A stretch of 33,118 nt of DNA from Lawsonibacter sp. GTDB taxonomy: Bacteria; Bacillota; Clostridia; Oscillospirales; Oscillospiraceae. Under the pieces are notes generated by a model. It was not told the DNA's origin. It did no database searches and saw nothing but the letters and a program-made list of their open reading frames with translations. Made by a program: the position numbers and the translations under genes. Numbering within the stretch: the first letter of the stretch is position 1; every line of letters starts with the position of its first letter. The stretch covers positions 1 to 33,118 of the forward strand of contig JAAWAD010000086.1 in the NCBI GenBank assembly GCA_022791995.1, given 5' to 3'. This document shows, one piece after another, positions 808-6,917 of this stretch.

Positions 808-2868
808 CTACCCCTCCTCCAGGGCCTGGCGCAGGCGCCGGAGGATGGAGGAGGCCTCCAAATCCACCTTATGCTCCAGGCGGCGGATGGTGATTTGAAA
901 GCGGCCCGTGCGCTCTTGCAGGTCAATCAGGCCCTGCTCCTCCAGCACATTCAGGCACAGCAGGGTGCGGGCGGGCACCTCCCACTGGCCGGAGCGCCGC
1001 TTGGAGACCCCTCTGGCGATGCGGGCCAGGGTATCCTCCACCACGGCGCCGGCGGCGGACTGGCGCTCCAGCCACCGCCACAGGTCCACGAACTCCCCCC
1101 GGCTGGGGAGGAGGAACCGGGCCTCCTGGGGGGTGAGGGGGTCCCCCTGGCAGAATTTGTCATAGATGGCCTGCTCCATCTGGGCCCGGGAGGGGGCCCG
1201 GCACAGATCCACAATTTGCAGCTGCACCGAACGCACGCCCCGGAACTCGTTGATCTGGGGATAGAAGGCCACATCCACCCGGCAGCCGGGGGTCAGACCC
1301 AGCTCTGTCCCGTCGGCGGAGAAGCAGATGGCCTCCAGACAGTCCCTCCGGGACTCCAGGCGCATTTTCAGGTGCCGGCCCCGGCCCACCTGGGTCATGG
1401 ACTGGACCTGGACTCCCTTTAAAAGGAAGACGGGGCGGGGGTTGCCGGCCCCCCAGGGCTCCAGACGGTCCAGGGACTCCACCGCCGGCACGGTGAGCTC
1501 GCCGGGGGTGACCACGGCGTCGGCCTCCAGCACGGAGGGCAGGGGTTCGCCCTGGCAGGCCTCGGCCACCGCCTGATGGATGGCCTGGGCCAGGGCGGGC
1601 AGGTTCTCCTCCCGGACGGTGAAGCCGGCGGCCAGGGCGTGGCCCCCGAAGTTCTCCAGCAGGGGGGCGCAGCGGTTCAGAATCTGGAACAGGTTCACCC
1701 CGCCCCAGGAGCGGCAGGAGCCCTTGCCCAGCCCCTGGTCCAGACAGACGAGAAAGGCGGGACAGCCGTACTTCTCCGCCAGGCGGGAGGCCACAATGCC
1801 CACCACCCCCTGGTGCCAGCCGCCGCTGGCCAGCACCACCGCCCCGCTCTGGGGGGCCATGTCCAGCCGCTGGACGGCCTGGCGGAAGATCTCCCCCTCG
1901 ATGGTCTGGCGCTCCCGGTTCAGCTCGCACAGCTCCCGGGCCAGCTCCTCCGCCCGCGCCGGGTCCCGGGCCAGCAGCAGCTCGGCGGCGGACTCCGCCC
2001 GGCCCATCCGTCCGGCGGCGTTGAGCCGGGGGGCCAGGGTGTACCCGATGGCCACCGAGGTAATGGGCTTGTCCTCCAGCCCGGCGCACCGGGCCAGCAT
2101 GTCCAGCCCCGGCCGGCGGGGCGGGTTCAGCCGGGCCAGACCCAGGCTGACAATGGCCCGGTTTTCCCCCGTCATGGGCATCACGTCGGCCACCGTGCCC
2201 ACGGCGGCCAGATCGCAGTAGGTCTGGAGCACCGGCTGCTCCGGGGCCACGGCCATCGCCAGCTTCAGGGCCACACCCACCCCGGCCAGCCCCTTGAACG
2301 GGTAGGGGCAGTCGGGCCGGTGGGGGTCCACCACCGCGGCGGCGGCGGGCAGCCGGTCCTTACAGGCGTGGTGGTCGGTAATCACCACGTCCACCCCCAG
2401 ACTGCCGGCAAAGACCGCCTCGTCCACGGCGGTAATGCCGCAGTCCACGGTGATAATCAGGCCCACCCCCTGTCCGGCCAGCTGGGCCACTGCCTCCCGG
2501 TTCAGGCCGTACCCCTCCTCCAGGCGGTCGGGGATGTAGGGGAGCACCTCTCCCCCCTGGCTGCGCAGAAACTCGGTCAGCAGGCAGGTGGCGGTGATGC
2601 CGTCCACGTCGTAATCCCCATAGACAGCGATGCGCTCCCCCCGGGACAGGGCCAGCCGGACCCGGTCCGCCGCCCGGTCCATGTCCTTCATGGCCAGCGG
2701 AGGCAGCACCGGCTCCCGGTCGGGGTGCAGAAGCCATTCGGCCTCCTCCAGCGTGGCGGCCCCCCGGGCGGCCAGCAGGCTGGCCAGCAGGGGCGGCAGC
2801 CCCTGGGCCTCCAGGGTGGCCCGGGCCCTTGGACAGAGGTCCGGCGTTTTCCACTGCTTGTATTTCAT
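808..2868 (-). CDS. recJ: Single-stranded-DNA-specific 5'-3' exonuclease RecJ
   Basis: A 686-residue RecJ, which degrades single-stranded DNA 5' to 3' in recombinational and mismatch repair. DHH phosphoesterase motifs appear in order: DYDVDG (residues 85-90), VDCGI (D142), TDHH (D165-H167) and VDPHRPDCPYP (D181). The DHHA1 half has the GSCRS segment (383-387) and FGGHALAAGF (GGH 408-410). An OB-fold region follows, and the last ~110 residues form an extra charged C-terminal tail of the kind seen in Clostridia. Length is somewhat above the 560-570 residues of enteric RecJ. The ATG has an AGGAGGGG ribosome binding site and a sigma-A promoter about 80 bases upstream. rel follows on the same strand, the common recJ-rel arrangement of Firmicutes. 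Confidence 0.96.
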   Translation of the reverse strand: MKYKQWKTPDLCPRARATLEAQGLPPLLASLLAARGAATLEEAEWLLHPDREPVLPPLAMKDMDRAADRVRLALSRGERIAVYGDYDVDGITATCLLTEFLRSQGGEVLPYIPDRLEEGYGLNREAVAQLAGQGVGLIITVDCGITAVDEAVFAGSLGVDVVITDHHACKDRLPAAAAVVDPHRPDCPYPFKGLAGVGVALKLAMAVAPEQPVLQTYCDLAAVGTVADVMPMTGENRAIVSLGLARLNPPRRPGLDMLARCAGLEDKPITSVAIGYTLAPRLNAAGRMGRAESAAELLLARDPARAEELARELCELNRERQTIEGEIFRQAVQRLDMAPQSGAVVLASGGWHQGVVGIVASRLAEKYGCPAFLVCLDQGLGKGSCRSWGGVNLFQILNRCAPLLENFGGHALAAGFTVREENLPALAQAIHQAVAEACQGEPLPSVLEADAVVTPGELTVPAVESLDRLEPWGAGNPRPVFLLKGVQVQSMTQVGRGRHLKMRLESRRDCLEAICFSADGTELGLTPGCRVDVAFYPQINEFRGVRSVQLQIVDLCRAPSRAQMEQAIYDKFCQGDPLTPQEARFLLPSRGEFVDLWRWLERQSAAGAVVEDTLARIARGVSKRRSGQWEVPARTLLCLNVLEEQGLIDLQERTGRFQITIRRLEHKVDLEASSILRRLRQALEEG

Positions 2869-2947
2869 AGCGCTCCCCTCCTGTCCCCGGGACCCCGCGC
2901 CGCCGGCGCCCCGTCCTGCGTCTTATGTCAATCGAAATGATTTTATC

Positions 2948-2977
2948 ATTATAGCACAGCTGACGGCCATTGCACAA
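2948..2977 (-). promoter_or_regulatory. Sigma-A promoter for recJ-rel
   Basis: On the minus strand, TTGTGC (2972-2977) and a perfect TATAAT (2948-2953) are separated by 18 bases. They lie about 80 bases upstream of the recJ start, in the divergent spacer shared with rlmB. Confidence 0.6.
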
Positions 2978-3056
2978 GAAAAATTATCAAATTCGGATAG
3001 AACGGGAATTCCTCCCCCCGGAAGGGCCCTCCAGAGGGGGGCGAAAAAATTGCCGC

Positions 3057-3085
3057 TTCCCCCCGCATGACAAGTGTGATATAAT
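3057..3085 (+). promoter_or_regulatory. Extended -10 promoter for rlmB
   Basis: TATAAT at 3080-3085 is preceded by TGA, giving the extended -10 form TGNTATAAT. The only -35 at 17-bp spacing is a weak TTCCCC (3057-3062). It lies 50 bases before the rlmB start. Confidence 0.55.
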
Positions 3086-3135
3086 GGCGCCGACTGACAC
3101 ACCACACAGCCAGACACAGCCAGGAGGAGAGCCAT

Positions 3136-3921
3136 ATGGACAAAAGACCCCCGCTGCGCCGGTCCGCGCCGGTCCAGACGGAGAACGACGGCGTCATCGA
3201 GGGACGCAACGCGGTCATCGAGGCCCTGCGGGCCAACGTCGCCATTGACAAGATTTTTCTCATCCGGGGCAGCGGCGACGCGGCCCTGGGGCACATCGCC
3301 TCCGCCGCCCGGGAGAAGGGCGTGGTGGTGGTGGAGGCCGACCGGCGCAAGCTGGACGCCATGAGCCGGACCCACGCCCACCAGGGGGTCATCGCCCAGG
3401 CCGCCGTGCGGGAGTACGCCTCGGTGGAGGACATTCTGGCCGCCGCCCGGGAAAAGGGAGAGGCTCCGCTGATTCTGGTGTGCGACGAGCTGTCCGACCC
3501 CCACAACCTGGGTGCGGTCATCCGCACCGCCGACGCCGCCGGGGCCCACGGGGTGATTATTCCCAAGCGGCGCTCCGCCGGCCTCACCGCCGTGGTGGGC
3601 AAGACCTCCGCCGGGGCGGTGGCCCACGTGCCGGTGGCCCGGGTACCCAATCTCACCGCCCTGCTCAAGCAGCTCAAGGAGGAGGGGCTGTGGATCTTCG
3701 GCGCGGCGGCAGAGGGCGCCGTCCCCCTGTACCAGGCGGACCTGAAGGGCCCGGCCGCCATCGTCATCGGCAGCGAGGGGGCGGGGCTGGGCCGCCTGGT
3801 GGCCGAGACCTGCGACGTGATGGTCTCCATCCCCATGCTGGGCAAAATCAACTCTCTCAACGCCTCAGCCGCCGCCGCCGTCCTCCTCTACGAGGCGGTG
3901 CGCCAGCGTCTGCACCCATAG
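3136..3921 (+). CDS. rlmB: 23S rRNA 2'-O-methyltransferase RlmB-type (SpoU/TrmH family)
   Basis: A 261-residue SpoU-family methyltransferase, predicted to transfer a methyl group from S-adenosylmethionine to a ribose 2'-OH of 23S rRNA (the RlmB position, Gm2251 in E. coli). Residues 18-95 form the small L30e-like RNA-binding domain (VIEGRNAVIEAL). The trefoil-knot catalytic domain shows all three SpoU motifs: DPHNLGAVIRTADAAG (121-136), VIGSEGAG (210-217) and IPMLGKINSLNAS (232-244). The ATG follows an AGGAGGAG ribosome binding site. The next gene starts 18 bases downstream behind its own AAGGAGG, so the two are probably one transcript. The exact target nucleotide cannot be read from sequence; YacO/TrmH-type paralogues look similar. 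Confidence 0.9.
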   Translation: MDKRPPLRRSAPVQTENDGVIEGRNAVIEALRANVAIDKIFLIRGSGDAALGHIASAAREKGVVVVEADRRKLDAMSRTHAHQGVIAQAAVREYASVEDILAAAREKGEAPLILVCDELSDPHNLGAVIRTADAAGAHGVIIPKRRSAGLTAVVGKTSAGAVAHVPVARVPNLTALLKQLKEEGLWIFGAAAEGAVPLYQADLKGPAAIVIGSEGAGLGRLVAETCDVMVSIPMLGKINSLNASAAAAVLLYEAVRQRLHP

Positions 3922-3939
3922 TCTGAAAAGGAGGCCGGC

Positions 3940-6120
3940 ATGAGCGGTCAGGACAAGAAACAACTGAATACTGACGGCCTGCTGGAAATCAAATCCCTGC
4001 TGGGCAACACGCCGCCGGCCTCCGCCTCCCTGGAGGAGATTCTGGCGGAGTTCCGGCCGGGCAAGACGCCGGAGGAGACCCAAGAGACCCCCCAGGAGAA
4101 GTCCGCCCCCCCTTCCGGGCCGCCCAAGCCGCCCCGCCCCGCCGGGGGCGAGAAGGTGGTGCCCTTTCCCGGGCAGCGGGCGGCCCCGCCCCCTCCGCCG
4201 CCGGAGCAGGCCGCGCCCCCCCCGCCCCCGGAGGAGCGGCAGGGGCCGGCGGTGCTCCACTTTCCCGAGGAGGAGAGCGCCCTCAAGGCCTTTTTGAAGG
4301 AGCTGAGCCGGAAGGCCAACAACTACGCCGACCAGATGTACCAGGACGACGAGGAGACCGACCCGGAGGAGGTCCGCCGTCTGGAGCGGCTGATTCCCGG
4401 CACCGACCGGGAGGAGGAGCCGGAGGAGGACGGGGAAGAGGAGGACGTCCCCCTGTTCCGCCGCCCCCGCCGCCGGGAGCCTCCGCCGCCCGACCTGTCC
4501 CCCCGGGAGCTGTCCTACCGCTGGAGCCGGGGACTTACCGGCCTGCGGGTGCGTGCCCTGCTGGTCCTTCTGCTGGCCGCCGCCGCCCTGGCCCAGGTGC
4601 TGGCCCCCGCCCTGGGCCTTGTCTGGCCGGAGGGGCTGGCCGAATACCCCCACTGGATTGCTGTCGCCCTGCTGGGGGCGGGAACCCTGCTCAGCGGGGA
4701 CGTGCTGCTTGCCGGACTGGGCCGTGCCCTCCGGCTGAAATTCGGCATGGACACCCTCTTCGCCCTGGCCTGCGCCTTCACCCTGGCCGACGGCGTTCTG
4801 CTGGCCCTGTCCGAGGCCCCCGCCCGCCTGCCCTATACGGCGGTGGTGCTGCCCGGGCTGTTCTGCCAGCTCCACGGGACCTATCACAAGCGGCAGGGCC
4901 TGCGCCTGTCCTGCCGGACGGCGGCGGCCTCCGCCTCTCCCTACCGGGTCACCCTGGATTTGGGCAAGTGGAACAACCGGGACGTCTACGTGAAGTGGCC
5001 GGGGGAGTGGGACGGCTTTGGCAGCCAGATCCAGACCGACGACGGGGCCCAGCGCGTCTACCGCCGGATGTGCCCTCTGCTGCTTCTGGGGACGGTGCTG
5101 CTGGCCGTCCAGTCCCCGGGGGCGGGGGAGCCGGAGCATCTGGTGTGGACCCTATCCGCCCTGTTCACCGCCTGCTCCGCCTATGGGGCCGCCCTGGCCT
5201 ATGGCCGGCCCTTTCACAAGGCGGCCCTGCGCCTGTCCCAGAGCGGCGCGGCCCTGGCCGGCTGGCCGGGCGTGGCCGCCTCCCGCCGGGGGGACCGGGT
5301 GCTGATTACCGACGCCGACCTCTTCCCCCCGGGATATGTGGAGCTGGGGGGCTATAAGATCATGCGGGACTTTCCTCAGGAGCGGGTGCTGGCCTACGCC
5401 GCCACCCTGATCCGGGACTCGGGCAGCGGCCTGGCCAGGCTGTTCCACGACCACCTCCGGGCCATGGGCGGGCTGCTCCGCCGGGCGGACAGCCTCCAGT
5501 GCCACGAGGGCGGAGGCCTTTCGGCCAACATCCGGGGGGATTCAGTGCTGGTGGGCTCCGCCGCCTTCATGAATCTGATGGAGGTCCCCCTGCCCCAGGG
5601 CCTCCACGTGAAAAACGCGGTGTTCTGCGCCATCAACGGGGAGCTGGCCGGCATCTTCACCCTGCACTACACCCTGCCCGACACCGTCTTCCCCGCCCTG
5701 GAGGAGCTGCTGGGCGCCCGAGTGGGCCCCGTGCTGGCCACCCGGGACTTCAATCTGATTCCCGCCATGCTCCAGCAGCGGTTCAAGCTGGCCGCCGACC
5801 GGATGGACTTCCCCCCGGTGGAGCGCCGCCGGGAGCTGTCTGACCCCGGCCAGCCCCACGGCGAGACCCTTGTGGCCCTGCTGTGCCGGGAGGGCCTGTT
5901 CCCCCTGGCGGAGGCCGTCACCGCCGCCAAGCGCCTTCGTTGGGCCGCCCGGACCGGGGCCGTGCTGTGCTGCGTCGGCTCCACCCTGGGCCTGCTCCTG
6001 TGCGCCTACCTCACCTCGGTGCGGGCCTACTCCTCCCTGTCCCCCCTGAATCTGCTCGTCTATATGCTCACCTGGCTGCTCCCCGTCTGGTTCCTGTCCG
6101 GCTGGGTCCACCGGTTTTGA
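3940..6120 (+). CDS. Degenerate P1B-type ATPase-like membrane protein (predicted catalytically inactive)
   Basis: I do not recognise this as a named family. The 726 residues start with ~190 disordered, acidic and proline-rich residues (poly-Pro at 83-97). About eight hydrophobic segments follow, near 203-228, 238-260, 268-290, 297-313, 378-391, 402-422, 672-694 and 702-722, with a soluble block at 430-665. Layout and soluble block match heavy-metal P-type ATPases: GAALAGWPGV leads to ITDADLFPPG (454-464) where DKTGTLT should be, GGGLSANIRGDSVLVGS (524-540) matches the N-domain glycine motif, GELAGIFTL (567-575) follows, and VLATRD (598-603) sits where TGD should be. The DKTGT lysine-threonine set, TGE, SEHP, CPC and GDGxND are all missing, and the actuator domain is reduced to ~60 residues. 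ATP-driven transport is therefore unlikely. A scaffold, sensor or partner role is only inference. It is co-directional with rlmB and has an AAGGAGG site. Confidence 0.7.
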   Translation: MSGQDKKQLNTDGLLEIKSLLGNTPPASASLEEILAEFRPGKTPEETQETPQEKSAPPSGPPKPPRPAGGEKVVPFPGQRAAPPPPPPEQAAPPPPPEERQGPAVLHFPEEESALKAFLKELSRKANNYADQMYQDDEETDPEEVRRLERLIPGTDREEEPEEDGEEEDVPLFRRPRRREPPPPDLSPRELSYRWSRGLTGLRVRALLVLLLAAAALAQVLAPALGLVWPEGLAEYPHWIAVALLGAGTLLSGDVLLAGLGRALRLKFGMDTLFALACAFTLADGVLLALSEAPARLPYTAVVLPGLFCQLHGTYHKRQGLRLSCRTAAASASPYRVTLDLGKWNNRDVYVKWPGEWDGFGSQIQTDDGAQRVYRRMCPLLLLGTVLLAVQSPGAGEPEHLVWTLSALFTACSAYGAALAYGRPFHKAALRLSQSGAALAGWPGVAASRRGDRVLITDADLFPPGYVELGGYKIMRDFPQERVLAYAATLIRDSGSGLARLFHDHLRAMGGLLRRADSLQCHEGGGLSANIRGDSVLVGSAAFMNLMEVPLPQGLHVKNAVFCAINGELAGIFTLHYTLPDTVFPALEELLGARVGPVLATRDFNLIPAMLQQRFKLAADRMDFPPVERRRELSDPGQPHGETLVALLCREGLFPLAEAVTAAKRLRWAARTGAVLCCVGSTLGLLLCAYLTSVRAYSSLSPLNLLVYMLTWLLPVWFLSGWVHRF

Positions 6121-6145
6121 CGCAGGCAGCTGCGGAAATTCCCTC

Positions 6146-6174
6146 TTGCGCATTGGGCCGCTTTCCTGTATAAT
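6146..6174 (+). promoter_or_regulatory. Sigma-A promoter for the pantothenate uptake/kinase pair
   Basis: TTGCGC (6146-6151) and TATAAT (6169-6174) are separated by 17 bases. This gives a leader of about 90 bases before the S-component gene. The leader ends in a small hairpin (GCTGC 6226-6230 with GCAGC 6250-6254, inner CCGT/ACGG) that directly abuts the AGGAGG ribosome binding site at 6255-6260. Confidence 0.7.
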
Positions 6175-6269
6175 GGCGCAGTCAAGGGGGCGGGAGCAAC
6201 GCGCCCTCGCCCTCTTCAAAATTGCGCTGCATCCGTGTTGGACGGAGCGGCAGCAGGAGGTAATGAAAT

Positions 6270-6917
6270 ATGAAAACCCGTAAGCACGACACCCGCTGGA
6301 TGGTAGGCACCGCCATGATGGCGGCCATCGTGGTCCTGTTGGCCAACACGCCCCTGGGACTGATTCCCCTGCCCATCATCAAGGCCACCACCACCCACAT
6401 CCCCGTCATTTTGGGCGCAATCCTTCTGGGTCCCCTGGCGGGGGGCATCCTGGGAGGGGTCTTCGGCATCTGCTCCATGGTCAACAACACCATCGCCCCC
6501 GCGGTGCTCTCCTTCGCCTTCTCCCCGTTTCTGGCCCTCAGCCTGCCCGGGGCGCTGAAGGCGGTGTGGGTCTCGGTGGGCTGCCGGGTGATGATCGGGG
6601 TGGTGTCCGGCTGGCTGTGGCTGGCTCTGCGGCGGCTGCATATCCACGAGGCGCTGGCCCTTCCGGTGGTGGGCTTCGTGGGCTCCATGACCAACACGGT
6701 GTGCGTCATGGGCAGCATCTATCTGCTCCTCCGGCCGGAGTACGCCCAGGCCATGGGCGTGGCCGCCGACGCGGTGCTGGGTCTGGTGCTGGGAGTTATC
6801 ACCGGCTCCAGCGTGCTGGAGGCCCTTGTGGCCCTGGTCCTGGTCACTGCCATCGGCCTGGTTCTGCTCCGGGTGCCCTATCTGCGGCCGGTTCAGACCG
6901 CGGGGGCGGACAAATAA
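6270..6917 (+). CDS. panT: ECF transporter S component, probably pantothenate-specific (PanT-like)
   Basis: A 215-residue, very hydrophobic protein with about six membrane helices, the size and character of energy-coupling-factor S components. These bind a vitamin and work with a shared EcfA/EcfA'/EcfT module encoded elsewhere. The segment IKATTTHIPVILGAILLGP (about residues 38-56), followed by a glycine-rich GGILGGVFG, is typical of the pantothenate/PanT-like group. Pantothenate specificity is supported by the next gene, coaX, 31 bases downstream, which phosphorylates pantothenate. The ATG has AGGAGG nine bases upstream. An earlier ATG at 6263 is out of frame. Substrate assignment is inference from family and neighbour; S-component class is solid. 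Confidence 0.8.
   Translation: MKTRKHDTRWMVGTAMMAAIVVLLANTPLGLIPLPIIKATTTHIPVILGAILLGPLAGGILGGVFGICSMVNNTIAPAVLSFAFSPFLALSLPGALKAVWVSVGCRVMIGVVSGWLWLALRRLHIHEALALPVVGFVGSMTNTVCVMGSIYLLLRPEYAQAMGVAADAVLGLVLGVITGSSVLEALVALVLVTAIGLVLLRVPYLRPVQTAGADK

Follow-up and report, generated by a model that had tools for sequence, protein, structure and literature searches.

A P1B-type ATPase family without its catalytic motifs is retained beside rlmB across a bacterial order

P1B enzymes, the heavy-metal pumps among the P-type ATPases, carry an HP motif in their N domain and a Mg-binding GDGxND loop. As described in two earlier reports, the DKTGT sequence bears the phosphorylated aspartate that is the signature of P-type ATPases (PMC10654040), and P1B pumps feature a TGE motif in the actuator (A) domain, a CPC/CPx metal site in membrane helix M4 and eight membrane helices (PMC10973460). 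Here, we describe a gene on contig JAAWAD010000086.1 of Lawsonibacter sp., analysed within a stretch of 33,118 nucleotides (nt; hereafter the window), whose product, referred to as pseudo-P1B-ATPase, has this architecture and lacks these motifs. The open reading frame (3940..6120, + strand) is intact and encodes 726 amino acids (aa), and a good ribosome-binding site (AGGAGG; 3929..3934, +) lies 5 nt 5' of the ATG, both as reported by an initial annotation. The results support a maintained, P1B-derived pseudoenzyme family whose catalytic residues were lost family-wide.

Motif counts were taken at the aligned positions of 132 distinct members drawn from 166 loci. Because the window's own family, the Oscillospiraceae, is over-represented among these, order-wide conservation was also judged on a second basis, an alignment of 21 order-wide members (locus L049 included). 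DKTG, TGD, the HP of the N domain, the CP[CH] of M4 and GDG were each found in 0/132 members, and TGE occurs in the aligned stretch of two (L046, L047), the window being without it. As a control, the best 20 non-family loci of a class-wide search (L061-L080) all carry CPC, DKTGT, TGE and GDGxND. The absence of TGE, HP, CPC and GDGxND noted by the initial annotation is borne out for the window and recurs across the family, and no orthologue was found to keep DKTGT. An aspartate does stand at the aligned catalytic position in ten of the 132 members, and its complete loss there is therefore not claimed.

In place of DKTGTLTxG, the window reads TDADLFPPG (residues 457-465; 5308..5334, +), where a replacement at 454-464 had been proposed, and the new sequence is conserved in most of the 132 members (D458 in 120, D460 in 119, F462 in 123, P463 in 125 and G465 in 119). 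Likewise, TGDxx, for which ATRD (600-603) had been read, gives way to TRDFN at residues 601-605 (5740..5754, +), with T601 kept in 116, R602 in 104, D603 in 130 and N605 in 125 of 132 members. Profile alignment to the PDB places an arginine (R629) at the position of the PxxK lysine in 100/132. D635, present in 84/132, comes after the last P-domain helix. D458 sits one residue past the catalytic aspartate in the ungapped profile alignment, right after the strand formed by residues 453-456 in the model. Most members have D-x-D with this one-residue offset, D460 being replaced by Glu in 9/132 and by other residues in 4/132. No cysteine column reaches 6/21 order-wide members, which argues against metal binding, and histidine reaches 6/21 at one column only.

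Searched on its own, the window protein matched nothing in Pfam or PHROGs and only CopA/ZntA models in NCBIfam, all of them sub-threshold; none of the order-wide members (0/21) matched any Pfam model. P-type homology was recovered by a family profile against the PDB, an AlphaFold2 model and a fold search, the profile scoring higher with copper pumps (P1B-1) than with Zn/Cd pumps (P1B-2). By sequence and fold, this homology spans the membrane, P and N domains. All three approaches recover a P-type fold in residues 430-665, on whose presence the initial annotation had let its proposal depend, and the model bears out the proposed P1B architecture with about eight helices.

In the AlphaFold2 model (secondary structure by DSSP), eight well-predicted membrane helices are arranged in P1B order, and the domains follow each other as helices 1-4, A-domain remnant, helices 5-6, P, N, P and helices 7-8. 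Helices 1-4, corresponding to MA, MB, M1 and M2 of a P1B pump, cover residues 199-329 (4534..4926, +; also seen in hydropathy). Between helices 4 and 5, the A domain is reduced to a two-strand hairpin without TGE (residues 330-368; 4927..5043, +; model and alignment); its shrinkage had been recognised, but the modelled remnant counts 39 residues and not the ~60 estimated. Helices 5-6 (M3, M4; residues 369-435; 5044..5244, +; model and alignment) have CPx replaced, its proline being kept at residue 414 in 14/21 order-wide members and changed to alanine in the window. The N domain (residues 467-577; 5338..5670, +; fold search and alignments) has lost HP and retains G526 and G539 of the former nucleotide site. 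The rest of the P domain (residues 606-652; 5755..5895, +; motif count and LpCopA alignment) is shortened: the stretch bearing GDGxND in pumps is missing, and the profile alignment to LpCopA stops before it. Helices 7-8 (M5, M6 in the model; residues 653-722; 5896..6105, +) complete the core.

The distribution of the gene was analysed in 148 genomes of the order, which we take to be GTDB Oscillospirales, comprising the window's own genome and others at least 95% complete (threshold E<=1e-40). Based on this profile search, the gene is present in 144/148 genomes and 90/92 genera, with one match in 143 genomes and two pieces on separate contigs in G288. Among the matches listed, the lowest-scoring member of the order reached 170 bits (G359). 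Among 195 genomes sampled across the class, scores in the 10 that belong to the order were 284-780 bits and covered most of the profile, and the 185 outside it reached at most 128 bits over part of it, again among the matches listed; the gap between the order and its surroundings (170 vs 128 bits) is clear but not wide. Across 199 genomes of the phylum, two matched at E<=1e-38, namely the genome of the window itself and another from its family, and an earlier search of 60 genomes (window's included) left five without a match, among them G055, which the profile later matched. The named relatives are all Oscillospiraceae (Lawsonibacter, Flavonifractor, Pseudoflavonifractor, Intestinimonas and uncultured kin). 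A tree built from 16 of the 132 members and 20 pumps recovers the family as one clade (100/100) on a long branch, with no clear point of attachment among the CopA- and CadA-type pumps.

The ratio of non-synonymous to synonymous substitution rates (dN/dS; NG86) was computed for 127 pairs and ranges from 0.03 to 0.33 in the 40 pairs of lowest dS; between the window and its three nearest relatives it is 0.30-0.38 (dN 0.18-0.21, dS 0.52-0.59). The gene is under purifying selection and broadly retained, in agreement with the maintained pseudo-enzyme family initially proposed. A search for essentiality data on this gene found none. A link to sporulation was considered and received no support: all five of the 148 genomes without Spo0A keep the gene and the four gene-less genomes have Spo0A, a comparison of little power.

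Directly upstream lies rlmB (3136..3921, +; TIGR00186, 237.8 bits vs a cut-off of 160.15), encoding the 23S rRNA (G2251-2'-O)-methyltransferase, whose stop codon ends 18 bases 5' of the pseudo-P1B-ATPase ATG. The same arrangement, upstream and on the same strand, is seen in 147/166 loci; of the 19 exceptions, 17 have no more than 367 bases of upstream sequence and two belong to one genome, G037. At E<=1e-40, both genes occur in 143 of the 148 genomes, pseudo-P1B-ATPase alone in one, neither in four and rlmB alone in none. Where both occur, 138 genomes have rlmB upstream, in the same orientation and on one contig with the gene, and five have it on another contig. In 81 of 116 measured loci, at most 50 bases separate the end of rlmB from the first in-frame start, with an overlap in seven of the 81, and a promoter/terminator scan over 2800-6400 found none. 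Two of the genomes lacking both genes (G275, G285) gave no RlmB-type match at 1e-10 and both fall in a single genus, pointing to a true joint loss, whereas the other two (G292, G300) have weaker methyltransferase matches only, 27-31% identical. The conserved unit is rlmB plus the pseudo-P1B-ATPase gene; among 20 neighbouring proteins scanned, the outer ones are variable (Era-like GTPase, EF-G in three loci, SpoIID, YebC, dehydrogenase, lyase, nitroreductases). In three of the order's families (L034, L035, L042), an EF-G-like gene immediately follows the pseudo-P1B-ATPase gene, and the Era-like GTPase gene lies nearby in L031, a possible further hint at translation. In the window, a 215-aa membrane protein (6270-6917, +) lies between the pseudo-P1B-ATPase gene and coaX; by eye it resembles an ECF-type S component, and a search against NCBIfam gave no match at 1e-10.

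The core is preceded by a cytosolic, acidic and proline-rich tail (residues 1-185 by composition and AlphaFold2; 3940..4494, +), which the initial annotation had set at 190 residues. It is predicted to be mostly disordered (largely pLDDT <50), with short helices at residues 12-20, 31-37, 114-138 and 142-150. A conserved motif, SLEEILAEF (residues 30-38; 4027..4053, +; motif list and aligned columns), takes the form [FY][ST]L[DE][DE]I[LM]AE[FY] in many relatives, with I34 and L35 each in 15/21 and E37 in 14/21 order-wide members. The strict pattern matched twice in 12 genomes, both times in the pseudo-P1B-ATPase gene; a relaxed pattern gave 46 matches, of which 30 were examined as loci and four were this gene. 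That the motif is a tag common to other proteins was rejected, as the other 26 loci indicate no second family. Under the relaxed pattern, L188, an unrelated 187-aa frame, carries the loosely similar ISLEEIFADF, and L172 resembles the start of DivIVA. The RlmB linker before the catalytic domain (RlmB 3136-3918) reads EYASVEDILAAA and resembles SASLEEILAEF of the tail, a likeness seen again in several order-wide pairs; the resemblance may reflect mimicry by which the tail binds RlmB, or no more than the common helix N-cap. Two members have a much longer tail on the same core (L041, 1169 aa; L044, 1056 aa). Draft contigs of L029, L112 and L113 end in or near the proline-rich tail, as if this GC-rich stretch were prone to assembly breaks, which may account for some cases of rlmB on another contig.

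Since the role of GDGxND is known, as are those of DKTGT, TGE and CPC (PMC10973460 and PMC10654040), the protein would be inactive as an ATPase or metal pump. As its ATP and metal parts are gone and relatives keep the gene beside rlmB, this pump-shaped protein probably has a new, non-pumping job. From the conserved cytosolic platform, the tail helix and the lack of metal ligands and catalytic residues, we infer a non-catalytic, membrane-anchored scaffold or adaptor, a reading that, taken together with the cytosolic partner proposed below, has an even chance of being right. The analysis itself demonstrates descent from P1B pumps, loss of the motifs, maintenance of the gene and its pairing with rlmB; inactivity, docking and the partner's identity are inferences. 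Of the three functions initially guessed at (membrane scaffold, metal sensor or partner of a real pump), the scaffold appears most economical. The family descends from a P1B pump nearest by profile score to CPC-type copper exporters; both the metal site and the catalytic motifs would have disappeared early in the history of the order holding the Oscillospiraceae, and the gene became fixed beside rlmB. The eight helices would carry a cytosolic platform of mini-A, P and N domains. One docking point for a cytosolic partner may be the former phosphorylation pocket on this platform, now remodelled into DxDxFPxG / TRDFN, and the flexible tail with its SLEEILAEF-type helix may offer a second. The likeliest partner would be RlmB or else a ribosome, mature or still in assembly, a suggestion that comes from the gene pairing alone.

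Several observations weigh against such a scaffold. G037 carries rlmB and the pseudo-P1B-ATPase gene on different contigs (the next upstream gene there is L033:71-1201), so the pairing is not absolute, and G271 has the gene with no RlmB match at 1e-40. The four co-absences represent three genera, one assembly gap each could account for G292 and G300, and they are weak evidence because adjacency makes joint loss easy. Co-transcription alone could account for the pairing. Furthermore, the tail motif is missing from some order-wide members and is undocked in the model, its helix having a pLDDT of ~60.

The main rival is a pocket that works, in which DxD and TRDFN would hold a ligand such as a nucleotide, phosphate or a metal ion, making the protein a membrane receptor or a new HAD-type enzyme. 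Motif I of HAD enzymes reads D-x-D, as in most members, and HAD-type phosphatases also have an acidic motif IV. The near-invariant signature goes beyond what passive decay would leave, and T601 and the arginine at the PxxK lysine place are retained. However, the pocket has lost the GDGxND stretch, D458 is displaced from the catalytic position and D460 varies, and we regard a working pocket as possible, though clearly less probable than a scaffold. As a pseudo-subunit, the protein would instead bind a working P1B pump in its own cell and modulate it; the shared fold fits this reading, and heavy-metal P-type ATPase matches were found in 148/148 genomes at E<=1e-30 (146 over the family cut-off). 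This co-occurrence is uninformative because pumps are universal; no pump gene was among the 20 neighbouring proteins scanned, and G252 and G295 keep the gene although their best pump match seems to fall below the family cut-off by E-value, so that a pump partner is doubtful. Less probable again is a passive transporter or channel using the old membrane path without ATP: the well-predicted eight-helix part and the proline left at the CPx place would fit, but the conserved soluble domains, rebuilt pocket and tail motif would go unexplained. The metal sensor initially guessed at is disfavoured and very improbable, as descent from metal pumps is set against the scarcity of conserved cysteine and histidine and CP[CH] in 0/132. 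A decaying pseudogene, suggested by one in-frame TGA in 2/144 carriers (G268, G057), is already contradicted for the family by its presence, dN/dS values and near-invariant signature.

A bolder version of the scaffold reading is speculative: throughout the order, a copper-type pump would have been converted to a non-catalytic platform in the membrane, core to the order and present in single copy, that is coupled to the modification of 23S rRNA. The former phosphate pocket would serve as a dedicated receptor site, and the tail would act as the membrane dock for RlmB or for a ribosomal particle, perhaps via a helix resembling RlmB's own linker.

In the open-access literature searched, we found no description of a maintained, catalytically dead P-type ATPase family, which is not proof of absence. 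Fold and class of event (pseudoenzyme) are known, and what appears new is the order-wide instance, which was not found in print. Few pumps have been studied as thoroughly as the P-type ATPases, yet this apparently dead family, present in nearly all sampled genomes of a large gut order, has no Pfam model. The family amounts to a natural experiment on the reuse of transporter folds after ATP and metal have been given up, and its pairing with rlmB gives concrete access to a possible connection between the membrane and ribosome maturation.

Among known systems, HAD phosphatases resemble most members of the family in having a D-x-D where the first P-domain strand ends (in the family offset by one residue), and the P domain of P-type ATPases is itself HAD-like. 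Unlike these phosphatases, pseudo-P1B-ATPase is without the acidic motif IV stretch and is joined to an eight-helix membrane domain. Among the P6 / CtpE P-type ATPases, CtpE reportedly keeps the catalytic aspartate. It further differs in being a working Ca2+ importer, and the P6 / CtpE ATPases show that bacterial P-type diversity is incompletely described (PMC10654040). The P1B-2 Zn/Cd pumps (ZntA 4umv, CadA 7qbz) are separated by the same motif losses and match the profile more weakly than copper pumps. With the P1B-1 copper pumps (LpCopA 3rfu/4bbj, AfCopA 3j09, ATP7B, HMA4), the family has fold and helix order in common over the whole core as well as profile homology, the control loci L061-L080 all being CPC-type pumps. 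Unlike them, it is without DKTGT, HP, CPC and GDGxND, with TGE left in 2/132, and combines an A domain of ~40 residues and no conserved cysteine with a long tail bearing a short motif.
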